Of a stretch of 64,000 nucleotides of DNA, positions 5,023 through 23,412 are shown piece by piece. Made by a program: the position numbers and the translations under genes. The stretch's first letter is position 1. Every line of letters begins with the position of its first letter. Source of the DNA: Flavobacteriales bacterium (lineage in GTDB: Bacteria > Bacteroidota > Bacteroidia > Flavobacteriales_E > Vicingaceae); NCBI GenBank assembly GCA_002401955.1, contig NVUQ01000011.1, positions 1 through 64,000 of the forward strand. The letters are read 5' to 3'. The notes under the pieces are model-generated. The model searched no databases and had not been told where the DNA came from. It saw only the letters and a program-made list of their open reading frames with translations.

Positions 5023-6147
5023 TTAATAATCAATTACTTGTTGAACCATATCTTTTGGAAGTTCTCTATTTTCATACTCTTGTGTTCTTAATTGAGGTTT
5101 AAACCCCGCTTTTTTTATTGAGTCTTGAATACCGTCAGCAGTAAAACGGTGTGGTGCACCTGCAGCTGAAACAACATTTTCTTCAATCATAATTGACCCA
5201 AAATCATTAGCACCAGCATGCAAACATGTTTGTGCTGTTTTTTCTCCAACCGTTAACCAAGATGCTTGAATATTTTCTACGTTTGGCAACATTATTCTGC
5301 TCAAAGCAATCATTCTAATGTACTCATCATCCGTTACGTTATTAGAAACACCTTTTACTCGCTTTAATAATGTTCCGTCATCCATAAATGGCCATGGAAT
5401 AAATGCTAAAAACCCGTTTACGCTTTCTGGTTTTTCACTTTGAACTTGTCTGATATCTACTAAATGTTCAAAACGTTCAGCAACTGTTTCTATATGTCCA
5501 AACATCATTGTTGCAGATGTTGTAATATTTAATTGATGCGCAGCTCTCATTACATCTAGCCATTCTCTACCAGAACACTTTCCTTTAGAAATTAATCTTC
5601 TTACTCTATCGTTTAGTATTTCTGCACCAGCCCCTGGTAAAGAATCTAATCCTGCCTCTTTTAATGCCGTTAACACTTCTGTATGAGTTAAGCCTTCTAA
5701 CTTAGCAATGTGAGCTATTTCTGGAGGCCCTAAACAATGTAGTTTAATACTCGGAAACATTGATTTAATACCTCTAAAAGTATCTTCATAAAATTTTAAG
5801 CCTAAATCTGGGTGGTGCCCTCCTTGTAATAACAATTGGTTACCACCATATTTTATGGTTTCCTCAATTTTTACCTTATATTCTTCCATTGTAGTAACGT
5901 AAGCTTCCTTATGTCCTGGAACTCTAAAGAAATTACAAAACTTACAATTGGCAATACAAACATTAGTGGTGTTTAAGTTTCTATCAATAATCCAAGTAAC
6001 TTTATTGCTCTTCTTCTTTTGTTTTTTCAACTCATTTCCCACAAACATTAGCTCTGCTGTAGAGGCATTGTGAAACAAAAACTCTCCTTCTTCAGCACTT
6101 AAAAACTCTAGTTTTAACGCTCTTTTTAATAATGTATCTACTTGCAT
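5023..6147 (-). CDS. mqnC: Cyclic dehypoxanthine futalosine synthase (MqnC)
   Basis: 374-residue radical SAM enzyme of the futalosine pathway to menaquinone; it cyclises dehypoxanthine futalosine. The three cluster cysteines are in CIANCKFC (about residues 60-67), preceded by IIDRNLNTTNV. Further signatures are QGGHHPDLGL, HCLGPPEI, LPGAGAEIL and GFLAFIPWPF, which favour MqnC over its paralogue MqnE (aminofutalosine synthase). The cell therefore probably makes menaquinone by the futalosine route rather than the classical Men route. The other mqn genes are not in the window. Confidence 0.92.
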   Translation of the reverse strand: MQVDTLLKRALKLEFLSAEEGEFLFHNASTAELMFVGNELKKQKKKSNKVTWIIDRNLNTTNVCIANCKFCNFFRVPGHKEAYVTTMEEYKVKIEETIKYGGNQLLLQGGHHPDLGLKFYEDTFRGIKSMFPSIKLHCLGPPEIAHIAKLEGLTHTEVLTALKEAGLDSLPGAGAEILNDRVRRLISKGKCSGREWLDVMRAAHQLNITTSATMMFGHIETVAERFEHLVDIRQVQSEKPESVNGFLAFIPWPFMDDGTLLKRVKGVSNNVTDDEYIRMIALSRIMLPNVENIQASWLTVGEKTAQTCLHAGANDFGSIMIEENVVSAAGAPHRFTADGIQDSIKKAGFKPQLRTQEYENRELPKDMVQQVIDY

Positions 6148-6205
6148 TAACCTGTATTTATATTATGCTTAAATTCGCTTCTTCAAAAATACTACAAAAA
6201 CAAGT

Positions 6206-7612
6206 ATGGAAATAAAAAAAGCAAGTAAATTAGGAGTTAAAGACAACGCAGTTTTTTTAATTGCTACAGATAAAGATTTATCTTTAAAAAACTTCTCTAA
6301 AGAAGAAATTATATACATCAAAAAAGAGCTTAAAGCTGAGCATAAACAAATAGAAATTAACCGTTTAACCAGCGTTGTTTATATCGTTTTACTAGATAAA
6401 AATGCTGATTACAAAGCCGCAGAAAAAGCACGAAATGCTGCGAGCACTTTAACCTCAGCGTTAAATAAAGCCAAGATTAAAACTGTTTCTGTTGTCTCAG
6501 ATTTAGCGTTAACCAGTGCGTTTATAGAAGGAATTGCTTTATCAAATTACCAGTTTTTAAAATATTTTTCTGATAAAAAAACAAATACTTTGGCTGAAAT
6601 TAAAGTTATTGGAACAATTAAAGCTTCAGGAATAGAAGAGCTTCACAATACTGTTAACGCAACTAATTATGCTAAAGATTTGGTAAATGAACCTCAATCT
6701 TTTTTAACTGCCACACAAATTTCTAAGGAAATTAAAAAGCTTGGAAAAGAAGCTGGTTTTACTGTTGAAGTTTTCAATAAAAAGAAAATAGAAGCTTTAA
6801 AAATGGGAGGTTTATTGGCTGTAAACAAAGGAAGTATTGAGCCGCCTACATTTTCTATATTAGAATGGAAACCAAAAAATGCTAAAAACAAAAAACCAAT
6901 AGTTTTAGTAGGCAAAGGTGTTGTTTATGATACTGGAGGTTTAAGTTTAAAGCCTACTGCTAACTCTATGGATTTTATGAAATGTGATATGGGTGGAGCC
7001 GCTGCAGTAATTGGTGGTTTGTATGCTATTGCAAAAAACAAATTGCCATATCATGTAATAGGACTTGTACCAGCAACAGATAATAGGCCGAGTGGGGATG
7101 CTTATGCTCCTGGGGATGTAATTACTATGCACAATAAAAAAACAGTGGAAGTGCTAAATACAGATGCAGAAGGGCGTTTAATAATGGCAGATGCATTAAG
7201 TTATGCGCAAAAATACAAGCCAGAGTTAGTTTTTGATATTGCCACTTTAACCGGTGCAGCAGCAGGAGCTATTGGTCATTATGGTGTTGTTGGAATGGGT
7301 AATGCTGAAGAAAAAACAATGGCAAAACTTAAAACTAGTGGAAACAATGTTTTTGAAAGAATCGCTGAATTTCCATTTTGGGACGAATATAATGAGCAAT
7401 TAAAATCGCCAATTGCAGATTTAACCAACCTTGGAAACGGTTCTGGAGGCGCAATAACAGCCGGTAAATTTTTAGAAAATTTTACTGATTATCCTTACAT
7501 ACATTTAGATATTGCCGGCCCTGCTTTTTTACACAAACCTATTAAATACTTGTCTCAAGGTGGTACTGGTGTTGGTGTTCGTTTGTTTTATGATTTTGTG
7601 AAAAACTATTAA
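6206..7612 (+). CDS. pepA: M17 leucyl aminopeptidase
   Basis: 468-residue cytosolic metallopeptidase of the M17 family, releasing N-terminal residues from peptides. The catalytic C-terminal domain shows VGKGVVYDTGGLSLKP (metal-binding Lys and Asp), KCDMGGAAAVIG, and the family signature NTDAEGRLIMADAL (about residues 323-336). The N-terminal domain (residues 1-170) is divergent, as is usual. It is divergent from mqnC with about 58 bases between the starts. A 73-base gap separates it from pdxA. Confidence 0.92.
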   Translation: MEIKKASKLGVKDNAVFLIATDKDLSLKNFSKEEIIYIKKELKAEHKQIEINRLTSVVYIVLLDKNADYKAAEKARNAASTLTSALNKAKIKTVSVVSDLALTSAFIEGIALSNYQFLKYFSDKKTNTLAEIKVIGTIKASGIEELHNTVNATNYAKDLVNEPQSFLTATQISKEIKKLGKEAGFTVEVFNKKKIEALKMGGLLAVNKGSIEPPTFSILEWKPKNAKNKKPIVLVGKGVVYDTGGLSLKPTANSMDFMKCDMGGAAAVIGGLYAIAKNKLPYHVIGLVPATDNRPSGDAYAPGDVITMHNKKTVEVLNTDAEGRLIMADALSYAQKYKPELVFDIATLTGAAAGAIGHYGVVGMGNAEEKTMAKLKTSGNNVFERIAEFPFWDEYNEQLKSPIADLTNLGNGSGGAITAGKFLENFTDYPYIHLDIAGPAFLHKPIKYLSQGGTGVGVRLFYDFVKNY

Positions 7613-8733: not shown

Positions 8734-10326
8734 TTGAGTTTAGCTCTAAACATTAATACTACTTTTTCTAATACAAGGGGATGGTTTATCCTTTGCTTGT
8801 CTAGTATTGCCTTAGGGTTATCTGTTTCGAAACCATTAATGGCCTTGGGGTTATTTGGTTTACTCATTGTTTGGCTTATTGATGGAAATCTTAAAGAAAA
8901 AATTAAAGCTTTTTACAATAACAAAACAGCATTAATAATTAGTTCTATTTACCTTCTTACCGTTTTAGGCTTCTTTTGGACTAGTAATCTTGAATTCGCA
9001 ATAGATGATTTGAGAAGAAAGCTTCCTATCTTTTTTATTCCTTTCTATGTTTCTGGGTTTAGTCCAATTACTAAAAAAGAACTTCATTTATTATTAAAAG
9101 TGTTTATTGCTGGAGTTCTCATTTCAACATTCTGGAGTTTATTTGTTTATCTGGGGGGGCTTAACATTAATATTGTAGACAAAAGAGACCTTTCTCGATT
9201 TAATTCTCATATCCGTTTTGGTCTTGCAATAGCGTTAACTATCTTTTTTTGTTTTTATTACTTTTTTCACAGCCAAACAATTAAAAAAAGAGTGTTGTGG
9301 TTAGGTCTTTCTTGTTGGTTAATTACATCATTGTTTCTTTTCAGCTTATTTACAGGCTTAGTAGTTTTCGTAATTACAGGTGTTATTTTACTCTTTGTTT
9401 TTGGAATAAGAGCCAGTAAAAACAGTATTATATTTTCATCTATATTGGTTTTTATTGCATTGTTTTTAGGAGGAAGTTTCTTTCTTTCCTCCTCAATAAA
9501 GGATTTTAATGAAAGTAATATTCCTAAAACAATAAGCGAAAAACCATTTACCAAAGAAGGAAACAAATACAGAAAAGACAAAAAAACAGAAGAAAGCACT
9601 TTAAGGGAAAATGGGTATTTTGTAGAAAAACACATTTCTGACAAGGAGTTTTCTGATGCATGGAACAACAGAAGCGACATTAATTATGAGGCTTTAGATT
9701 TAAAACAAAACATTATTAAGTTTACTCTTAGAAGATTTATTACTTCTAAAGGGTTGCGAAAAGATGCCGAAGCAATAAACAGCCTAAGCCTAAAAGAAAT
9801 TAAAGCAATTGAAAACGGTGTTCCAAACCACCGTTTTTTAAAGAAGAACGATATTTCTATAAGAATTCAACAAATTTTATGGGAACATAATTCTTACCTC
9901 GAAGGAAGAAGTTTTAACGGGCATTCAGTTTTAATGCGCTGGGAGTATTGGAAAACAGCAATAAATATTATTAAAGAGGACTTCCTGTTTGGGGTAGGAA
10001 CAGGAGATGTACAAGATGTTTTTAACGAACAATTCAAACTAAACAAGTCTAGGCTAGAAAATAAATATAGGCTCAGAACACATAACCAATTTCTAGCTTA
10101 TGGAGTCAGTTATGGGTTAATTGGTTTGTTTTGGTTTATCATTTGTTTATTTTATCCCTTTATAAAGTTTCGACTTTATAAAAATTATATTTACTTTGCT
10201 TTTTTAAGTATTATTATTTTATCCATGATATCGGAAGATACACTAGAAACACAAGCGGGTATTAACCTTTTTGCATTTTTTAATACTCTATTTTTGTTAA
10301 GGTTAAAAGAAAATATAACAAACTGA
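8734..10326 (+). CDS. O-antigen ligase/polymerase-like membrane protein
   Basis: 530 residues starting at TTG; the next methionine lies inside the first membrane segment, so TTG is the best start. About ten to twelve hydrophobic segments flank a long hydrophilic loop (roughly residues 255-430), the layout of Wzy_C/O-antigen ligase proteins. Within and after the loop, WEHNSYLEGRSFNGHSVLMR and FGVGTGDVQDVFNEQF followed by RTHNQFLAYGVSYG resemble the conserved H-containing part of that family. It probably joins or polymerises lipid-linked glycans in the periplasm. It is followed after one base by a CotH-family gene. Confidence 0.8.
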   Translation: MSLALNINTTFSNTRGWFILCLSSIALGLSVSKPLMALGLFGLLIVWLIDGNLKEKIKAFYNNKTALIISSIYLLTVLGFFWTSNLEFAIDDLRRKLPIFFIPFYVSGFSPITKKELHLLLKVFIAGVLISTFWSLFVYLGGLNINIVDKRDLSRFNSHIRFGLAIALTIFFCFYYFFHSQTIKKRVLWLGLSCWLITSLFLFSLFTGLVVFVITGVILLFVFGIRASKNSIIFSSILVFIALFLGGSFFLSSSIKDFNESNIPKTISEKPFTKEGNKYRKDKKTEESTLRENGYFVEKHISDKEFSDAWNNRSDINYEALDLKQNIIKFTLRRFITSKGLRKDAEAINSLSLKEIKAIENGVPNHRFLKKNDISIRIQQILWEHNSYLEGRSFNGHSVLMRWEYWKTAINIIKEDFLFGVGTGDVQDVFNEQFKLNKSRLENKYRLRTHNQFLAYGVSYGLIGLFWFIICLFYPFIKFRLYKNYIYFAFLSIIILSMISEDTLETQAGINLFAFFNTLFLLRLKENITN

Positions 10327-10327
10327 A

Positions 10328-13300
10328 ATGAAGCTTCTTGCCGCCAATATTTTTCCTTGTATTAAAAACTTTCACGTCTTAGTTTGGTTGTTTTTTGTAT
10401 CGTGCGGAAGCTCTGCGATACAAGAAGACACTACTCCAAAAATTATTAAAGACTATTTTATTGAATGTGAGGCTAGCGATTTTTCAAATCTTCAAATCAA
10501 TTTTAATGAGAATAACTATATACCTATTAAAATAACTTATAACGGAGAAACTCGAAAGGCAAAAATGAGAATCCGAGGAGATACTTCTCGAAAAGACCCC
10601 AAAAAATCTTTAAAAATAAAATTCGATTCTTTGCTGATTGATAACATTCCTAAAGTTTTAAATTTTAACGCTGAATATGCGGATAAAACCTATATCCGAC
10701 AATATTTATCTAGCCAATTAATGAAAGAGTCTGGTCAAATCTGTTTTAACTCTGAACACGCCAAAATATTTATAAACGGTAAATTTCATGGTCTTTTTTT
10801 ACAAGTAGAAAATATGGATAAGGATTTTCTAGAAAGAAACCATTTATCAAAAAAAGGCAACCTTTACAAGGGGACTAAAGATGGTGCTTGCCTTAGTGTT
10901 TTTGACGATTTTGATGCTAAATGGGAAAAGAAAACAAATAAAAAAAGTGATCATAACGACTTATCAAAACTTATAAATGACCTCAACTCTGTTTCAGATA
11001 ATGAATTTCATAGTTTTATAAAAAAGACTTTTGAGTATGATAAATTGGTAAACATTTTGGCTTTAAATATGTTTTTATCAAATAGCAGCACATATTATCA
11101 TAATTACTATCTCTATCACGATTTATATGATACAGGAAAATGGCAAATGATTCCTTGGGACATGGATAAAACACTGTCTTATTACAATTGGATGCCATAT
11201 ACCTACCATCGAACATCCAGCGAATGGGAGTCTGACAACCCCTTGGTTGAAAGATCAATTTTATGTGCTCCGATGTTTAATGATATTAAAAAAAGAATTG
11301 TCGAACTACATAAATCACACTTAAACAACCAATATCTTACTCCAAAAATTGATAGTTTAACAACTATACTTTCTAAAATTATTCCATTAGATAGCAATGA
11401 TAAAATTAACTCAGTAAAAGAGTGGAAAAATTATGCGAATAACGAAAAAAAATACTTTGATAATCACTATAAACTATTACAAAAACAATTTAACCAACAA
11501 CCCCTTAGTTTTAATGTATTTCGATTTAAACAAACCCAAACTGATAAAGTAACTTTTAGGTGGAACAAATCTTTACATCCTGCAAATAAAAACATAACAT
11601 ATATTCTTACGTATGGAACAGATTTTTTATTGAAAGACAGTTCAAAAACAACTTATATCACTAACATAACAGACACATTTTATACTCTCAAGAAACAATT
11701 AACAGAAGATACTTATTATTGGAAAGTAACTGCTTTTGATAGCGAATATTATACGGATGGTTTTAATACAAAAAACATCTTTACTGTAAAAAGAGGAACT
11801 CCTTTACCTCAAAATATTTCTACTAATTTAACCTTAACAAAAGAGATGTCTCCTTATGTTGGTTCAATTAAAACCACCATCAAAAAAGGTGCAACACTTA
11901 CGATAGATGCTGGTGTAGAAATACACTTTAAACAAGATGCTACTATTGAGTGTTATGGCAATTTTATTGCAAACGGAACCGCGAAAGAGCCTATTATTCT
12001 TATGCCAAAAAATACAGCTACAGAATGGGATTTTATTTATTTTTATGAGTCTTCTGAAACGGCTTATTTAAAAAACGTAATCCTAAAAGAAGGAACTATA
12101 AATTCTAAAAGAACAAAATTAACCCTTGAAAATTCATCCATTCTTGTAGATAAAAAATTTATGGGTGATGGTTGGAACAATAGAAAAGTTTTAATGTTTA
12201 GTGGCAATGGAAATGTTCACGTCAACAACAGCACTTTTATAGGAAATGGTGAGGGTGAGGGTCTTGTTTTCTTTTATGGTGAAGCCATTACAGAAAATTC
12301 TTTTTTTGAAAATGTTCCAGATGCCATCGAATACATTTCAATGAACAAAGGTGTTATTCGAAATAATTATGTAACAAGATCTCCTGACGATGCTGTTGAT
12401 TTAAACAACTGTAATAATATTCTTATTGAAAAAAACATATTGTTTAACAATAAAGATAAAGGAATCTCTATTGGAACTGAACAGTACGGTGCATCAATTA
12501 AAAATATTCAAATTAAAAACAACTTAATCGTGGGAAATAAAACGGCTATTGCTATAAAAGATAGTTCCGTAGCACACATTAGTAACAATACGCTTTTTAA
12601 AAATGTTAAAGCAATTTACGCATATAGAAAAAGAGAAGATTACCCCTTGGGAGGAACAGCATTTGTTCGAAATACTATTTTAGAAAAAAATGAAAAACTG
12701 AATGCCTATGGAGACGAATATTCGAAAATAACGGTAAACAACACTATTGTTCACAACAAGGTTTTAGCTGGAAAAAACAACATGCAGGGTGATCCAAAAT
12801 TTATAGATGCTGGAGGAAATAATTTTCATTTAAGAGCAAATTCTCCTTGCCTTAAAAAAGGAGATGACAACAATGATATTGGAGCTTTTAATAGTAATGG
12901 AACTACAGTTAGTTTTTCTAAAGTACATGTAAAATCTAGCAAAGAAAACAATACTGGAGATTGGATTGAACTTATTAATAATTACAATGTTTCTGTGAAC
13001 TTATCTTTATACAAAATCATAATTACCTCTAACCAAAAGAAAAAAGAATTTGTATTTCCCATTGGAACAACATTGTCACATTTAAATAATTTATTTATTG
13101 TCAATAAATATTCTTCATTTATAAAAAATTTAGAAAGCTTAAGACCTGTTGTAGGAAACCTTCCTAAACTCAACTTGAATCAAACAGTTTTAACGCTAGT
13201 TAATCCTGGAGGTGATATTATTGACACCTACACTTACTCTGCTGAAACCATTAATTCTGAGAACATTACCTTTGTTTCGAATCAGGTTAATGATAAAACA

Positions 13301-13330
13301 AAAAAAACTTGGGAATTGGTAACCGATTAA
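10328..13330 (+). CDS. CotH-family lipoprotein with beta-helix and lamin-tail domains
   Basis: 1000 residues. The N-terminus carries a lipoprotein signal ending in FVSC (Cys26). Domains in order: a CotH kinase-like domain (about 35-400) with KMRIRGDTSRKDPKKSLKI, GKFHGLFLQVENMDKDFLE and MIPWDMDKTL; a fibronectin-like unit (about 400-495); a right-handed parallel beta-helix (about 505-850) with repeated NN/N-I strands such as NNCNNILIEKNI; and a lamin-tail-like beta domain (about 875-985) with DWIELINNYN. CotH proteins are atypical extracellular kinases in other bacteria; activity here is inferred. Its stop is immediately followed by the ATG of a second CotH gene. Confidence 0.85.
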   Translation: MKLLAANIFPCIKNFHVLVWLFFVSCGSSAIQEDTTPKIIKDYFIECEASDFSNLQINFNENNYIPIKITYNGETRKAKMRIRGDTSRKDPKKSLKIKFDSLLIDNIPKVLNFNAEYADKTYIRQYLSSQLMKESGQICFNSEHAKIFINGKFHGLFLQVENMDKDFLERNHLSKKGNLYKGTKDGACLSVFDDFDAKWEKKTNKKSDHNDLSKLINDLNSVSDNEFHSFIKKTFEYDKLVNILALNMFLSNSSTYYHNYYLYHDLYDTGKWQMIPWDMDKTLSYYNWMPYTYHRTSSEWESDNPLVERSILCAPMFNDIKKRIVELHKSHLNNQYLTPKIDSLTTILSKIIPLDSNDKINSVKEWKNYANNEKKYFDNHYKLLQKQFNQQPLSFNVFRFKQTQTDKVTFRWNKSLHPANKNITYILTYGTDFLLKDSSKTTYITNITDTFYTLKKQLTEDTYYWKVTAFDSEYYTDGFNTKNIFTVKRGTPLPQNISTNLTLTKEMSPYVGSIKTTIKKGATLTIDAGVEIHFKQDATIECYGNFIANGTAKEPIILMPKNTATEWDFIYFYESSETAYLKNVILKEGTINSKRTKLTLENSSILVDKKFMGDGWNNRKVLMFSGNGNVHVNNSTFIGNGEGEGLVFFYGEAITENSFFENVPDAIEYISMNKGVIRNNYVTRSPDDAVDLNNCNNILIEKNILFNNKDKGISIGTEQYGASIKNIQIKNNLIVGNKTAIAIKDSSVAHISNNTLFKNVKAIYAYRKREDYPLGGTAFVRNTILEKNEKLNAYGDEYSKITVNNTIVHNKVLAGKNNMQGDPKFIDAGGNNFHLRANSPCLKKGDDNNDIGAFNSNGTTVSFSKVHVKSSKENNTGDWIELINNYNVSVNLSLYKIIITSNQKKKEFVFPIGTTLSHLNNLFIVNKYSSFIKNLESLRPVVGNLPKLNLNQTVLTLVNPGGDIIDTYTYSAETINSENITFVSNQVNDKTKKTWELVTD

Positions 13331-15295
13331 ATGTCTTCACAATTAAAAAAATACATTTTCATTATTTTACTGATAGGGGCATCATGTGGTGGTTATTGGT
13401 GGTTTTATAGTTCTCATTGGGGTGTTTCAATAACAAAAGAGCACTTATGGGAATATTCGTTTCAACAAAAAGGAAAGGAATCGTTTGATGATGTTATTTG
13501 GGAAAAACCACAAGAGGTAAAGCCCTTTCCTGAAGATAGAAGCAATTTAAATCTTGTTTTTCGAACAAGATTTACCCTAAAAGATTTCTCTAAAGTAGTT
13601 GAAGGAAGCCTTGAGTATGGGTTCAGGTATTCTGCTAAAGTTTTGATTAATGGAACAGAATGTTCCTATACCAATAGAAATCTCATTACCCCTTCATTAG
13701 AAAATGACAAACTAAAAATTGAAGAATACTGGAGGCCTCGAAAAGTGACTATAAACCAAGAGGTTTTGGCTGAGCTCTTAAAAAATGGAGAAAATACGAT
13801 TACCATTATTGTTTATAATCTTGAAGACCTTAAAACCATTGACTGCTCAAAGAAACAACTCGCTTTTTTAACTGAAGGAAACAGCAATAATTTAGAATCT
13901 AACTACAAAATAAAAAAACCTTCGAGTTATTTTAGTGAATCTAACATTCCTATTTTTAAAATAAACACCAACGATTCTGTAATCCCTGATGAGCCAAAAA
14001 TTGAAGCTTCGTTAAATATTGTAAATATCCCTTCCCGCACAAATAAGTTATCTGGCCCATATGTTTTTCATAACATCAAAATTGAACGAAGAGGCAACAC
14101 CTCTCAAACTTTTGCAAAAAAATCATATAGCATCAATTTATGTGATAGCAATTACAAAAAAAAATCCCGCTCTCTACTTGGTTTACCCGATTCAAAAAAG
14201 TGGGTTTTGTATGGTCCGTATGCAGACAAATCATTAATCAGAAATTCGTTAACCTATTCCATTTATCGCCAAATGGGGAATTATGCGCCTCGTACCCGTT
14301 TTATAGATTTAGTAATTAACGACAATTACCGAGGCATATATGTTTTGACCGAAAAAATTCAATTAGGGTCAAACCATTTAGATATTCCTTCTTTTAAAAT
14401 GGGTTTAAAGGATAGTTCAAAAGCTTCTGGAGGGTATTTATTGGAAATTGACAGAAACCTCTGGAGAGGGGCTTATCCTCCGCCTAACGACACCTCATCC
14501 ATTCCATCTTCCTATATGGTGAAAGAGCCAAAAAGGAGTCAAATTAGTCCTGAAATTGAGAAAACCATAAAAAGGCAATACAATACTTTTGAAAAACACC
14601 TTTATGAAAATGACAGCATTTATAATTATTTAGACATAAACTCTTTTGTCGATTACTTAATTATTACAGAGTTTACAAAGAATATAGACGGCTATTGTTT
14701 AAGTACCTTTTTGTATAACAAAGAGATATCGAGTCCGACTCCAAAATATTACCTTGGCCCTATTTGGGATTATAACTTTTCATTAGGTTTAACTGACTAC
14801 CGAGAAGGTTTTAACCCTGAAGGCTATGTATACAATTCTACCAAATACATCCCGTTTTGGTGGAAAACTCTTTTAAAAGACGAAACATATAACAACGCTT
14901 TAAAAAAGAGGTATTTCGAACTTAGAAAAGGAGTCTTGTCCAATCGAAATATTGAAAACAGTATTGATTCATTACACACAATTTTAAAAAATGCTAATGT
15001 TCTTAATTTTAAAAAGTGGCCCGTTCTTAATTCTCCGGATTTTTGGCCCAACTATTTTTTAGGTAAAACATATTTAGACGAAATTGCTTATTTAAAATCA
15101 TGGATTAACAAACGACTTAATTTTTTAGACAATGACATCTTAGCTAAAGAAAAAAAAGGCCTAAAATATTACGAAATATCTATTCGTAACAACAAAAAAT
15201 GGATGCGTGAGATTAAAATAAAAGCAAAAAAGAGAGAAATAAGTGTTGATGAAATGATTAAAATTGATGCTAAATATATGGTTAAAGTGTTTTAA
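13331..15295 (+). CDS. CotH-family protein with shared C-terminal module
   Basis: 654 residues with one N-terminal membrane segment (IFIILLIGASCGGYWWFY), so the protein is outside the cytoplasm. A small beta-rich region (about 35-180) precedes the CotH domain (about 215-600): RRGNTSQTFAKKSYSINL, PYADKSLIRNSLTYSIYR, RGIYVLTEKIQLG, GGYLLEIDR and YLGPIWDYNFSLG. The WDYN motif replaces the WDMD of its neighbour. Residues 619-651 are a helical module (KKWMREIKIKAKKREI, then DEMIKIDAKY) found also in two other proteins of this locus. The start abuts the stop of the first CotH gene, indicating coupled translation. Confidence 0.87.
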   Translation: MSSQLKKYIFIILLIGASCGGYWWFYSSHWGVSITKEHLWEYSFQQKGKESFDDVIWEKPQEVKPFPEDRSNLNLVFRTRFTLKDFSKVVEGSLEYGFRYSAKVLINGTECSYTNRNLITPSLENDKLKIEEYWRPRKVTINQEVLAELLKNGENTITIIVYNLEDLKTIDCSKKQLAFLTEGNSNNLESNYKIKKPSSYFSESNIPIFKINTNDSVIPDEPKIEASLNIVNIPSRTNKLSGPYVFHNIKIERRGNTSQTFAKKSYSINLCDSNYKKKSRSLLGLPDSKKWVLYGPYADKSLIRNSLTYSIYRQMGNYAPRTRFIDLVINDNYRGIYVLTEKIQLGSNHLDIPSFKMGLKDSSKASGGYLLEIDRNLWRGAYPPPNDTSSIPSSYMVKEPKRSQISPEIEKTIKRQYNTFEKHLYENDSIYNYLDINSFVDYLIITEFTKNIDGYCLSTFLYNKEISSPTPKYYLGPIWDYNFSLGLTDYREGFNPEGYVYNSTKYIPFWWKTLLKDETYNNALKKRYFELRKGVLSNRNIENSIDSLHTILKNANVLNFKKWPVLNSPDFWPNYFLGKTYLDEIAYLKSWINKRLNFLDNDILAKEKKGLKYYEISIRNNKKWMREIKIKAKKREISVDEMIKIDAKYMVKVF

Positions 15296-18606: not shown

Positions 18607-20253
18607 TTAATAAGAGGCCTTTTTCGCTCTGTTTCTTATTACGTATTTTGCTGATATTTCTAACATCTCATCAACACTAACACCTCTTTTCTTGGCATCT
18701 AAATTTACTTTAGAGAACCATTCTTCGTTTTGTTTAATTCTTTCGATTATTTCATTGATCTCATTCTGAGCTTCCACATCTTTATTTTCAACATAGCCTT
18801 TTTTTTGTTCTTCATCCGTTTTCTGAAATACGTGTACCTCATATTCCTTCCCCCACACCTTAAAAGTTTTTTCAGGGTAAAAGCTTTTTAAGAGCTTCAA
18901 CTTGCCATCATTGAACATGGTTTTTTTCGAGAGTTTTCCCTCTATTTCTGAAAATTGCCCCTCCCAAAGTATTAACTCGCCTATTTCCATGTTGTTTGAT
19001 GGGCTCTCTTTGTCTTTAAATTTTTTCATATGCCCTTCGTTGCTTTTGTCACTAAAAGGGTCTAAATTGGCTTGGTATGCAAAGTAAGGAGCCATGTAAT
19101 AAATCTTTTTTTTTGAGTAATTTTTTTTATACCAACTAGCAACATCCAGGAGACAGTGCTCAGAAAGTATCATCCTCTGATCAACGATTAAGTTTTGAAC
19201 AGTTGTAATGGTTAGAATTAGTCCTAAAGAAATTAAGGAAATAACAACATATTTTTCATTCCATGCTTTTAAAAATAACTCTTGCAGCTCATTAATAGCA
19301 AGCAAAGCAATTAATGCTATTAAAGGCACTATAGTGCCTGTAACTCTTAATAAACCAAGCGACCCCCACCCTTGCCACCAATAAATAGAATGAACACCAA
19401 TTATTGAAACAATTGGAAATAGAATTAACAAAATCCACTTTAAATTAGTTTTACTAAAAACTTGCTTTGATTTAATAGATATACTTAATCGAAATAAAAT
19501 ACCTCCCAAAAACAATAGAGAAACAACTGTTCCTGCAATATTCTTGTAGTTTTGGATAAAGTGAAACAAGTCTCCTGAGCCATAAGTGCTTCGTGCTGCC
19601 GAATAGGGTCTGCTTGTAATTATCCAAAATATATCATTGTAATAAAAATACCCACCTATACTATAAATTATGGGTCCCGTGAGTAGAAAAAAAACATACT
19701 TAAATTCTTTTTCAATGAGTAAATATAAAATAAACCAAGGAATAACTATATAACTCTCAGGCCTAGCAAATATAGAGAACGATAACAAAATACAACCCCA
19801 TAAAAAATTTCGTTTTAAAAATAAGTGTAAAGCAATTATTATTATTACAGCAAAGAGAACTTCTGTCAATCCAGATAACACCAATTTAAAAAAAACAGGT
19901 GATGAAAAACAAAAAACTATTGCCAACCACCCATATTTTAAAGATAATTGCTGAGCTATTTTAAGAATAAACACTCCGCAAACAACAAACAGTAAAATGT
20001 TAAAAAAAATCATGCCGTTAAACCCAAATTGAGCAAAAGGAGAGCTTAATATAGTGAAAAGGGGTTTCCCCCAATGGTGCACTAATAATGAAGGATAATA
20101 CCAAGAGTATTTTGCTATCTGGAAGTGTTTAATCCCGTCTCCAGGGTCAAGAATGTTTTCGCCAAGAAAATAAGCGTAACCGACAAAAATAAAACTCAGA
20201 CAGGTAACAATCAATAAATTTAGCACTCTATTAACCCCCGCATTCTTTATCAT
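18607..20253 (-). CDS. GT39-like membrane glycosyltransferase with shared C-terminal module
   Basis: 548 residues. About ten to twelve membrane segments (1-350) come first, with ENILDPGDGIKHFQIAKYSW after the first one, the usual place of the catalytic Asp in GT39/ArnT-type enzymes. A hydrophilic domain follows (about 360-490, probably periplasmic) with YYMAPYFAYQANLDPFSDK. Residues 507-539 are the shared helical module (EEWFSKVNLDAKKRGV, then DEMLEISAKYV). It probably transfers a sugar from a polyprenyl-phosphate donor. It is transcribed toward the 435-residue membrane protein, 42 bases away. Confidence 0.7.
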   Translation of the reverse strand: MIKNAGVNRVLNLLIVTCLSFIFVGYAYFLGENILDPGDGIKHFQIAKYSWYYPSLLVHHWGKPLFTILSSPFAQFGFNGMIFFNILLFVVCGVFILKIAQQLSLKYGWLAIVFCFSSPVFFKLVLSGLTEVLFAVIIIIALHLFLKRNFLWGCILLSFSIFARPESYIVIPWFILYLLIEKEFKYVFFLLTGPIIYSIGGYFYYNDIFWIITSRPYSAARSTYGSGDLFHFIQNYKNIAGTVVSLLFLGGILFRLSISIKSKQVFSKTNLKWILLILFPIVSIIGVHSIYWWQGWGSLGLLRVTGTIVPLIALIALLAINELQELFLKAWNEKYVVISLISLGLILTITTVQNLIVDQRMILSEHCLLDVASWYKKNYSKKKIYYMAPYFAYQANLDPFSDKSNEGHMKKFKDKESPSNNMEIGELILWEGQFSEIEGKLSKKTMFNDGKLKLLKSFYPEKTFKVWGKEYEVHVFQKTDEEQKKGYVENKDVEAQNEINEIIERIKQNEEWFSKVNLDAKKRGVSVDEMLEISAKYVIRNRAKKASY

Positions 20254-20343
20254 AAAAAATATTTTATAAATTAAAAACCAAATATAGTTCTTATTATTGC
20301 AAAATTATAGTTTCTAAATATCCACTTAAAAGTTACTTAAAAT

Positions 20344-21090
20344 ATGAGCGATAATAATTTTTCTTTTAAAGAGGTCGATGTTGAAGGCCATGAAACACTA
20401 GATGCAATTTCTGATGCTGATAATTTCAATGAATGGATGTACGATACTATTTCACCATATTGTTCGGGTAAAATATTAGAAATCGGGAGCGGCATTGGTA
20501 ATATTTCAAGGTATTTTTTAGAAAATAAAAGAAATATTACTTTAAGTGATATAAGAGATGAATATTGTAATAAATTACGTGCTAATTTTAATGAACATAA
20601 TCCAGAAGTAGTAAATGTTAATATTGCTGATGCTGATTTTGACACTAAATACTCACATTTAATTGGACAATTTGATACAGTCTTTTCCCTTAATGTTGTT
20701 GAACATATTGAAGATGATTTGTTAGCTATAAAAAACATCAAAAAGTTACTTCGAAAAGGTGGGATTATTATTACTCTTGTACCTGCTTGGAATACACTTT
20801 ATAATGAATTTGATAAATCTCTAGAACACTATCGTAGATATAATGCATCATCACTCAATACTCTTCTAAAGAATGAATACGAAATTGTTCATACTCAATA
20901 CTTTAATTTAATGGGAATTTTTGGATGGATCCTCACAGGGTCGATAATGAAAAAGAAAACTATTCCTAAAGGACAAATGGGCTTATACAATAAGCTTGTA
21001 CCCATATTTAAAATTATTGACAAAATAGTATTCCACAAGATTGGCTTATCTGTAATCTCTATTGGACGTAAATCGTCCTCCGAAAACTAA
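20344..21090 (+). CDS. SAM-dependent class I methyltransferase
   Basis: 248 residues. The SAM-binding motif is KILEIGSGIGNISRYFL (about residues 42-58), followed by TLSDIRDEY as motif II and FSLNVVEHIEDDLLAIKNI as motif IV (about 119-137). A later segment, WNTLYNEFDKSLEHYRRY, is common in UbiG/type 11-like enzymes near polysaccharide genes. Substrate unknown. It is a single plus-strand gene set between minus-strand membrane proteins, which fits the mosaic make-up of this island. Confidence 0.82.
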   Translation: MSDNNFSFKEVDVEGHETLDAISDADNFNEWMYDTISPYCSGKILEIGSGIGNISRYFLENKRNITLSDIRDEYCNKLRANFNEHNPEVVNVNIADADFDTKYSHLIGQFDTVFSLNVVEHIEDDLLAIKNIKKLLRKGGIIITLVPAWNTLYNEFDKSLEHYRRYNASSLNTLLKNEYEIVHTQYFNLMGIFGWILTGSIMKKKTIPKGQMGLYNKLVPIFKIIDKIVFHKIGLSVISIGRKSSSEN

Positions 21091-21116
21091 CCCAATAAAC
21101 AAGTTTGAATTTGAAT

Positions 21117-22265
21117 TTATTTACTATTTGCAGTCAACTTCAATAAAAGTTCATTAAGTACATTTCCCACAAATGGAGAAAATATAACAATAGAAAACAT
21201 AACAAATCTATTTCCGAACTCAGTCGCATACCACATATCCCATTTTGCATAAAACAAAAACTGACCAGCAATTATGGTCAACAACATTACAGCCCAAAGT
21301 TGATTTTTCATCTTTCTTATCATAATAACCCCAATACAAGCAATAATTATTACCGGGTTAGCTTCCACAACACCTAATGTCGGGTGAAATAAAAGGTTAT
21401 ATAGTCCTGATAGCAACTCTTGATTAAATCCAGATGAATAATCCAGAGTGATCATGTTGTAGTTTTCATCAAAAGTAATCGTTTTATGGTATCCTGTAAC
21501 AAAGGCATTACCATAGAGTAGAAGATTTGAATATAATAGAGGAACTAAACTTATGCAAAAAATAATTATTATCGAAAAAGACACTTTGACTCCTTCTGTT
21601 ATACTCTTTTTATGCGCCCAATCTACTTTGTTTTTAAAATAATCCCAAAAAACGAATAAAAACATTATTCCTATCCAAGGAATATTAGAAACTGCAGCAA
21701 AACATGCAAACCCAAGAATTAAAGCGGCCAAATAATATTTTTTCCTTAATATATAAAGTACTCCTGCCGCTATAAGCACTGTAGAAAATAAAGAACCTAA
21801 ATAATTATATGAATAATTCATTATTATAGTGCCTGTTGCAAAAAGAAACGCTGTCATCAATGAGATACTTTTATTAAAAAAAACTCTGTTTATAGCATAA
21901 ATAATAACATTTAACATGATTGCCAAAAGAAGATTATAGTACATCACTCCTATCGCACCAAAAAGGAGATAAAAAGGAACGGTGGTTATTGAAAATAAAA
22001 TGCTATACTTTGTAACTAAAACTCCTTCTGGTGATAAAGCAAAGCCTCCACTTAAATGAAGCCTCTCTTCAAAATTATTTGCCATATTTAAATCAAAATC
22101 GTTGATAATAGAAACAACTATTTTTTCATAGGCAAATGAATCACCTGTTGAGTAGTGTCGGCATTCATGATAATTATCAAACGATTTAATATAGGGAACA
22201 TATATTAGCAGTGAGATTATAACGATAAAAACGTAAATAACTCTTTCATCAACCTTACTTATCAT
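21117..22265 (-). CDS. Polytopic membrane protein, probable GT-C glycosyltransferase
   Basis: 382 residues with about nine membrane segments. After the first segment, residues HYSTGDSFAYEKIVVSIIND carry an acidic pair in the position of the GT-C catalytic loop. A further sequence, GGFALSPEGVLVTKYS, is typical of Bacteroidetes dolichyl-phosphate-mannose transferase-like proteins. Its start overlaps the 145-residue gene by 11 bases, so the two are translated from one message with the GT2 gene upstream. Confidence 0.68.
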   Translation of the reverse strand: MISKVDERVIYVFIVIISLLIYVPYIKSFDNYHECRHYSTGDSFAYEKIVVSIINDFDLNMANNFEERLHLSGGFALSPEGVLVTKYSILFSITTVPFYLLFGAIGVMYYNLLLAIMLNVIIYAINRVFFNKSISLMTAFLFATGTIIMNYSYNYLGSLFSTVLIAAGVLYILRKKYYLAALILGFACFAAVSNIPWIGIMFLFVFWDYFKNKVDWAHKKSITEGVKVSFSIIIIFCISLVPLLYSNLLLYGNAFVTGYHKTITFDENYNMITLDYSSGFNQELLSGLYNLLFHPTLGVVEANPVIIIACIGVIMIRKMKNQLWAVMLLTIIAGQFLFYAKWDMWYATEFGNRFVMFSIVIFSPFVGNVLNELLLKLTANSK

Positions 22266-22692
22266 CTTTACTCATTATAAATTTAACCGATCTTAAAATC
22301 ATTTCCTCTTCACTTACCCCTTCATCCAATGCTTGTTTTTTTACTTTATAAAACCAAATACTGTCGTTTTTTATTCTTGAGATTAAGCTTTGTTCTCTAC
22401 TTTCTTGTTCCTCAAAATATAAATCTTCTGCCATTAATGAGTTCGCTTCAATTTCAATCATTGCAGGAATTGTTAAACCTCTTACTTTTGCTGTCTTTTT
22501 AATATTGTGCATCCAAAGACTATCCTTTTTTATTCTCTCAATTTTAATTCGTAGGCTTGGGCTTACTCGATGCGAATCAACATGGAATTTCTTATTGTAA
22601 CTATATGGCTCACGACCATTATTTACTAGGGCGTATATAAAAATCATAAATGCACTAGAGCAAATAACAGATATAACCAAATACTTTTTCAT
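22255..22692 (-). CDS. Small membrane-anchored protein with two copies of the shared module
   Basis: 145 residues. One N-terminal membrane segment or uncleaved signal (YLVISVICSSAFMIFIYAL) is followed by a wholly helical, charged exterior. Residues 55-87 and 108-140 are two copies of a 33-residue module (SLWMHNIKKTAKVRGL; SIWFYKVKKQALDEGV), also found at the C-termini of a CotH protein and a GT39-like protein nearby. Apart from the anchor and linker the protein is nothing but this module. Function unknown; an adaptor or docking role is a guess. It overlaps the membrane protein gene downstream and lies six bases after the GT2 stop. Confidence 0.75.
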   Translation of the reverse strand: MKKYLVISVICSSAFMIFIYALVNNGREPYSYNKKFHVDSHRVSPSLRIKIERIKKDSLWMHNIKKTAKVRGLTIPAMIEIEANSLMAEDLYFEEQESREQSLISRIKNDSIWFYKVKKQALDEGVSEEEMILRSVKFIMSKDDK

Positions 22693-22698
22693 TAAAAT

Positions 22699-23412
22699 TT
22701 ATTTACTAAAAATATTATATTTAATAATACAATAAATTGCTCTAAATCCGTCTCTCCAACCTATTTTTTTACCTTCTTCAAAGGTTCTTCCGTAATAAGA
22801 AATGCCTACTTCATAGATTCTAATATTAGGAATTCTAGAAAGTTTTGCAGTTAGTTCAGGCTCAAATCCAAAACGGTTTTCTTTTAAGTTTAAGCTCTTG
22901 GCGATATCAGACCTTATTAACTTGTAACATGTTTCCATATCTGTTAAGTTTAAATTCGTAAGCATATTGGAAAATGTAGTTAAGACTTTATTTCCAATCG
23001 AATGCCAAAAGAACAAAATACGGTGCGGATTTCCACCCATAAAACGAGAACCATAAACAACATCAGCAAAACCACTTAAAATAGGCTTTAGTAATAGGTT
23101 GTATTCTTCTGGGTCGTATTCTAAATCTGCATCCTGCACAATTAAATAATCACCTGTTGCAAGTTTAATTGCTTTATGTATAGCAGCTCCTTTCCCCTTG
23201 TTTTTTTCTTGAGAATATAATTGAATAATTATATCGGAATTACTAGCCTTATATTCTTCTATTTTTTCTATAGTGTTATCCGAGGAAAAATCATTTACAA
23301 TAATTATTTCCTTAGAAACTCCTTCTGGCAAAACCACCTTTTTAACTTTATCTAAAATTAAATGAATTGTTCTTGCTTCATTATAAGCTGGGATTAATAT
23401 GGATAATTTCAT
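22699..23412 (-). CDS. GT2 glycosyltransferase, DPM1-like
   Basis: 237 residues, a compact GT-A fold without membrane segments. KLSILIPAYNEARTIHLIL opens the domain, VNDFSSDNTIEKIEEY binds the nucleotide, and QDADLEYDPEEYNLLL carries the DXD metal site (about residues 94-109). GSRFMGGNPHRILFFWHS and ETCYKLIRSDI are typical of polyprenyl-phosphate mannose or glucose synthases. It probably supplies the lipid-linked sugar to the GT-C-like proteins around it. Its start overlaps the upstream membrane-protein gene by four bases. Confidence 0.9.
   Translation of the reverse strand: MKLSILIPAYNEARTIHLILDKVKKVVLPEGVSKEIIIVNDFSSDNTIEKIEEYKASNSDIIIQLYSQEKNKGKGAAIHKAIKLATGDYLIVQDADLEYDPEEYNLLLKPILSGFADVVYGSRFMGGNPHRILFFWHSIGNKVLTTFSNMLTNLNLTDMETCYKLIRSDIAKSLNLKENRFGFEPELTAKLSRIPNIRIYEVGISYYGRTFEEGKKIGWRDGFRAIYCIIKYNIFSK

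Follow-up and report, generated by a model that had tools for sequence, protein, structure and literature searches.

A portable, predicted three-helix module shared by unrelated surface-glycan proteins of Bacteroidia

Introduction

Among carbohydrate-active proteins, precedents for docking are provided by the dockerins, which bind cohesins, and by AlgX, which binds AlgK. The enzyme class to which AlgX belongs works in pairs, such as PatA/PatB, DltB/DltD and AlgI/AlgJ-X, in which the gene for the SGNH protein lies directly downstream of that for an MBOAT (membrane-bound O-acyltransferase) protein with an FxYxxF-type motif, and in PatA the tyrosine of this type of tail carries the acetyl group (PMC12148441). 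Here we analyse a stretch of 64,000 nucleotides from a Flavobacteriales bacterium of the Vicingaceae (GenBank assembly GCA_002401955.1, contig NVUQ01000011.1, positions 1 to 64,000; hereafter the window), in which four copies of one short module are found on a CotH-family protein, a membrane glycosyltransferase and a small anchored protein. The SGNH proteins of such pairs turn out to be the main class of hosts of this module in other genomes, and many Bacteroidota carry the same, previously unnamed domain of three predicted helices on unrelated proteins that make or alter surface sugars outside the cytoplasm, where it would probably serve to hold enzymes at their site of work. An original prediction, made from the letters of the window alone, proved right in outline, although the unit is larger than it described and the role that it proposed is only partly supported.

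A genuine domain family

The prediction had placed gapless 33-residue segments at 15185-15283 (residues 619-651 of the CotH protein), at 18637-18735 (residues 507-539 of the glycosyltransferase), and twice in a protein of 145 residues, at 22432-22530 and at 22273-22371. These coordinates are correct, the two segments of the small protein being its residues 55-87 and its residues 108-140, and all four do align without gaps, with invariant I, W, A and M. The hosts and the full module copies in the window are the following.

13331..15295, forward strand: CotH-family protein of 654 residues, module host (PF08757, E = 4.5e-56), with an N-terminal hydrophobic segment as membrane anchor
15146..15292, forward strand: module copy 1, residues ~606-654 of the CotH protein, ending at its C-terminus (core 619-651, W624; profile matches)
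18607..20253, reverse strand: GT-C type membrane glycosyltransferase of 548 residues, module host, with ~7 transmembrane segments predicted from hydropathy
18628..18771, reverse strand: module copy 2, residues ~495-542 of the glycosyltransferase (core 507-539, W512; profile matches)
22255..22692, reverse strand: single-pass anchored protein of 145 residues, consisting of a transmembrane segment and two modules (sequence and AlphaFold2 model)
22417..22563, reverse strand: module copy 3, residues ~44-92 of the 145-residue protein (core 55-87, W60; profile matches and model)
22261..22416, reverse strand: module copy 4, residues ~93-144 of the 145-residue protein (core 108-140, W113; profile matches and model)

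The helix-0 boundary of copy 1 (see below for the helices) was set by analogy with the AlphaFold2 models of other hosts. The glycosyltransferase also has a weak match, below the cut-off, to NCBIfam NF046093 (cell-surface glycopolymer protein). The anchor of the 145-residue protein lacks a lipobox, and homologues at loci L035, L037 and L044 have lipoprotein-type signals.

With single copies as queries, phmmer retrieves other copies at E-values of 1e-8 to 1e-3, the weakest being 0.45. When the window rows were left out, a profile made of copies from other genomes, though originally seeded from the window, scored the four window copies at 51.4, 45.6, 35.8 and 31.4 bits, as compared to 7.3 bits for the highest-scoring among 13,800 shuffled open reading frames (ORFs) of the window and about 2 bits for its next real ORF. 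An enlarged profile matched 216 times in 4651 ORFs, and not once when the ORFs were reversed. Shuffles, reversed ORFs and the window-excluding profile together rule out a chance alignment, and the module is a genuine, unnamed and portable domain family that deserves a family entry of its own. That it is common to otherwise unrelated hosts, as had been predicted, is likewise supported.

According to AlphaFold2, the window's 145-residue protein folds into helices at residues 45-56, 58-71, 75-109, 111-124 and 128-144, with a predicted local distance difference test score of ~97 across most of residues 50-140, and in an SGNH host the module helices span residues 379-396, 398-410 and 415-430. The modelled fold of the module is confident and autonomous. 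These models, together with the comparison of GH16-like lipoproteins with and without an insert, show a unit of ~55 residues and three predicted helices, of which the 33-residue segment is the second half (helices 1 and 2), preceded by a helix 0. The helical hairpin proposed earlier is incomplete as a description, as three helices are predicted. In order, the unit begins with helix 0 and a D/N-P kink; helix 1 then starts at the invariant W and leads through a capped turn (I-S-x-D/E) to helix 2. In tandem modules helix 2 is predicted to continue unbroken into the next helix 0. The insert sizes in the GH16-like proteins agree with this unit: the loop between GNPRNE and RWKRN measures 10 residues where a module is lacking, 68-71 where there is one copy and 124 where there are two.

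Across 209 copies, and counting from the tryptophan as position 0, I-6, W0, A+8 and A+23 are nearly invariant, and K/R+7 (81%), D/E+16 (91%), D/E+22 (82%) and W/Y/F+25 (92%) are strongly conserved. A tyrosine nucleophile within the module can be rejected, as W and Y are equally frequent at position +25.

The earlier statement that no named family is known for this module is borne out by searches of Pfam, NCBIfam and the PDB, by sequence as well as by fold, none of which gave a match covering it. In particular, no Pfam-A model matches it above the curated cut-off, whether the window hosts, 64 members singly, the consensus or the window copies are used, the best sub-threshold matches being ExoX-like_C (E = 0.0052) and RHH_1 (E = 0.0064). 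No NCBIfam model matches the module, including those for the C-terminal sorting domains of the type IX secretion system (T9SS), Foldseek found no significant fold match in the PDB (best E = 0.99), and the PDB sequence search returned only designed helical repeats, via summed fragments. Literature searches, which covered few subscription papers, retrieved no description of it.

The nearest likeness is to the helix pair of ribbon-helix-helix (RHH) proteins and lies in a helix-turn-helix arrangement and an A-x3-[GN]-x-[ST] turn, below threshold in sequence as well as in fold. Helices 1 and 2 superpose on CopG (1ea4) at 1.6 Å over 31 residues, but with a sub-threshold E-value of 9.2, and RHH-type Pfam models give nine sub-threshold matches among the 64 members (RHH_1 on four of them). 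The profile consensus, however, matches no RHH family, and an attempt to retrieve RHH proteins from relatives found none. Moreover, the module is without the DNA-contacting N-terminal strand, a helix preceding the pair in both models, and its hosts are extracytoplasmic. An origin from an RHH domain was considered and is not supported, the resemblance being sub-threshold only and absent from the consensus.

Distribution among genomes

The module was detected in 21 (first profile) or 23 (second profile) of 46 genomes of the family. Within the class, 71 of the 396 genomes sampled carry it. In a draw from the phylum, none of a further 393 genomes had it; this draw includes class members and seems biased to very clean genomes, and its result is not read as absence outside the class. 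A scan of the genome contigs of close relatives with the module of the glycosyltransferase gave no match. Named relatives comprise Bacteroidales, Marinilabiliales, Prolixibacteraceae, Lentimicrobiaceae, Saprospiraceae, Cytophagaceae, Flavobacteriales and Sphingobacteriaceae metagenome-assembled genomes, and two further ones are records titled Chlorobiota.

In the draft genome to which the window belongs (4.19 Mb), only four copies were detected, all within 7.4 kb, a lower bound given a completeness of 83%. Six copies lie within ~7 kb in genome G042, and hosts are dispersed in others, e.g., G119, G316 and G084. Twenty genomes chosen for having only one strong match were searched deeply, and in 11 of them, nine of which are at least 95% complete, no second match appeared even at E = 1; as a divergent second copy, of the kind seen in ArnT-like proteins, is missed by the profile, such copy counts are lower bounds.

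Host proteins

The 182 distinct hosts comprise 99 AlgX/AlgJ-like SGNH proteins, 25 GH16-like lipoproteins, four CotH proteins, 13 GT-C proteins in three clusters and 41 others. Those of the last group that could be classified are PMT_2 (ArnT-like), DUF2079, Wzy_C with tetratricopeptide repeats (TPRs), GDSL and small two-module proteins, and a few are fragments or unplaced. As judged from sequence, every classifiable host is exported or membrane-anchored with glycan-related domains, and none looks cytoplasmic. These anchors, export signals and host domains support the expectation that all copies lie outside the cytoplasm, and this host range points to work on glycans outside the cytoplasm.

Hosts carry one to three tandem copies, and in 150 of the 182 the last copy ends at most 25 residues from the C-terminus. 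Most of the others are the 25 insertions in GH16-like proteins, together with ArnT-like proteins in which a second, divergent copy follows (seen in two of four). The predicted position at or next to the C-terminus thus holds for most hosts, not for copy 3 (the N-terminal one) of the 145-residue protein or for the internal modules of the GH16-like lipoproteins.

In several SGNH hosts PF16822 is found above the cut-off, and their fold matches AlgJ (4o8v, E = 4e-11), AlgX and PatB1. The D, H and DS columns are invariant in their alignment which, together with the MBOAT upstream, identifies them as acetyltransferases of the AlgX/AlgJ type. An MBOAT gene lies directly upstream in 91 of 106 cases with and 21 of 25 without the module, the missing cases including contig ends. 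Of these MBOATs, 110 out of 112 (loci L035, L106-L112, L126-L205 and others) end in FNPFIYFRF, which includes the acyl-shuttle tail of FxYxxF type. SGNH paralogues, one with and one without the module, stand side by side at L043:7754-8884 and 9038-10315 and at L192:2727-3866 and 5914-7233. At another locus an SGNH host gene is split in two ORFs (L203:5956-6831 and 6862-7278), possibly by a frameshift or an assembly error, the ORF with the module being intact.

The GH16-like lipoproteins (L037:11422-13425, L121:7934-9889 and 26 homologues; motif SEIDFEI) stay below the Pfam cut-off, one module-less member matching PF00722 at E = 0.0011, and are often encoded beside MBOAT-SGNH pairs. EIDFE is found in nearly all members and EIDIE in two, and 25 of the 28 have the module inserted at one loop. 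Wzy_C/O-antigen ligases with C-terminal TPRs followed by the module are encoded at L250:4469-6562 and L253:2681-4732.

Two neighbours of the module hosts in the window are as follows.

10328..13330, forward strand: CotH, right-handed beta-helix and lamin-tail protein (Pfam), with no match to the module
22699..23412, reverse strand: GT2 protein resembling polyprenyl-phosphate-sugar synthases (sequence; PF00535 confirmed in the neighbouring cluster of relatives)

The first of these genes, which codes for a large protein, adjoins that for the module-bearing CotH protein, a pair conserved in relatives (clusters C9 and C10), and the second might possibly make the donor for GT-C enzymes.

Gain, loss and mobility

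The module is present in 62 of 84 SGNH ORFs from named records, and the rest mostly end just past the catalytic domain, at ~375 residues. As a scan query, the family-wide SGNH alignment was too poorly conserved, and a closer one of four members served. In a tree of 67 SGNH sequences, parsimony requires at least 12 module changes, three of them forced by well-supported branches. The insertion point in the GH16-like proteins is identical wherever measured, a pattern that fits one insertion followed by loss or duplication. The module is thus optional and mobile, being gained and lost freely with the catalytic domain kept. Since module-less hosts have the same MBOATs, and since the acyl-shuttle tyrosine lies on the MBOAT, a part of the module in MBOAT-SGNH catalysis was rejected, and it is therefore not catalytic.

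Possible function

The reading that we tentatively favour, with somewhat less than an even chance of being right, is that of an accessory targeting domain which binds a conserved ligand of the envelope, the binding step being what we infer. The module is added, as an independently folding unit, to the C-termini of unrelated extracytoplasmic glycan enzymes, or inserted once in a surface loop of the GH16-like ones. It would do no chemistry of its own and would concentrate its host where this acts, through binding to a component that all these bacteria share. The ligand would more likely be a glycan chain, the lipid carrier of such a chain or the cell wall than a private protein partner; tandem copies might raise avidity, and the small anchored proteins with two copies could be stand-alone binders or bridges. 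Within a genome, modules on different hosts show no greater similarity to each other than expected (0.308 vs 0.303, with 131 of 500 permutations as high), and there is therefore no sign of species-private pairing. In view of this lack of co-adaptation and of the single-copy genomes, both as a conserved ligand would lead one to expect, and of the carbohydrate-binding module of AlgX, which occupies the same position as the module in the SGNH hosts (PMC9734138), binding of a conserved ligand is preferred. Several points weigh against it. Ligand binding is putative; many of the conserved positions look like the core of the fold together with K+7, D/E+16 and D+22, and the column profile shows no evident aromatic platform exposed for sugar binding; CotH is of kinase fold, with a presumed glycan substrate; and hosts clustered in one locus, as in the window, would equally fit a protein scaffold. 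Small all-helical carbohydrate binders are, to our knowledge, rare.

Such a scaffold is the main rival: as a docking domain, the module would attach to a shared receptor, periplasmic or membrane-bound, and O-acetylation, glycosyl transfer and trimming would thereby take place in one assembly. We consider this possible and, on balance, rather unlikely. It would account for diverse enzymes sharing a C-terminal module, for tandem copies and small two-copy anchored proteins and for the tight spacing of hosts in the window genome and in G042, and helices 1 and 2 may be richer in hydrophobic positions than a simple hairpin would require. However, hosts are dispersed in G119, G316 and G084, co-adaptation within genomes is not seen, and single-host genomes are common, so that the receptor must be another protein, of which none was found. 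A more elaborate form, a periplasmic assembly code private to Bacteroidota, is doubtful. In it, one receptor would gather, by way of the module, glycosyltransferases, O-acetyltransferases, ligases, trimming enzymes and CotH kinases into a complex that finishes surface glycans, and lipoproteins with two modules would serve as its bivalent connectors.

The original prediction had the module bring module-bearing proteins together, i.e., modules would pair with one another to give homo-oligomers of a host or hetero-complexes. Tandem copies, several hosts per locus and the sub-threshold likeness of helices 1 and 2 to the dimerising RHH pair (CopG; RHH_1) would suit such self-association, which is nevertheless improbable, as within-genome similarity (30.8% against 30.3%) and a consensus match to RHH families are both lacking and the 11 single-copy genomes exclude obligatory hetero-pairing; subject to the divergent copies mentioned above, a strict need for a partner module on a second protein is therefore not general. 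At least as improbable is a passive tail that stabilises or spaces the C-terminus of its host without specific binding: most conserved positions are core-like and gain and loss are clean, but W, K+7, A, D/E+16, D+22, A and W/Y+25 are deeply conserved in ~209 copies on unrelated hosts, the module is restricted to glycan enzymes, and one protein is made of two modules only. A sorting tag, also proposed earlier, is unlikely because the module occurs internally and on multi-pass proteins of the inner membrane.

Beyond a few proteobacterial systems, little is understood of how periplasmic enzymes for the acetylation, glycosylation, ligation and trimming of surface polysaccharides come together on one chain. 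A portable domain across Bacteroidia flags uncharacterised glycan enzymes by their tag, offers a small soluble bait for the ligand or receptor and, with its natural module-less versions, allows for a clean deletion test.

Comparison with known systems

Like the C-terminal domain common to T9SS-exported proteins of Bacteroidota, the module is mostly found at the end of exported proteins; in contrast to that domain, it is predicted to be all-helical, occurs internally and on multi-pass inner-membrane proteins as well, and matches no T9SS model. With respect to the MBOAT-SGNH pairs, it is an addition to the mechanism described for them. It resembles dockerins in being small, mobile, duplicated and mostly C-terminal on diverse carbohydrate-active enzymes; however, PF00404 matches neither the 64 members nor the consensus nor the window copies, the column profile has no Asp-rich calcium loop, a cohesin-like partner is not known, and the hosts are periplasmic or membrane proteins. 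The binding module of Pseudomonas AlgX (PDB 4knc, 7ula) is likewise an accessory C-terminal domain of a periplasmic SGNH O-acetyltransferase working with an MBOAT, whereas the present module, helical and of ~55 residues as modelled, has no sequence or fold match to it, occurs on glycosyltransferases, CotH and GH16-like proteins as well, and comes in up to three copies. Dockerins and the AlgX binding module are therefore its nearest counterparts in use, not in kind.

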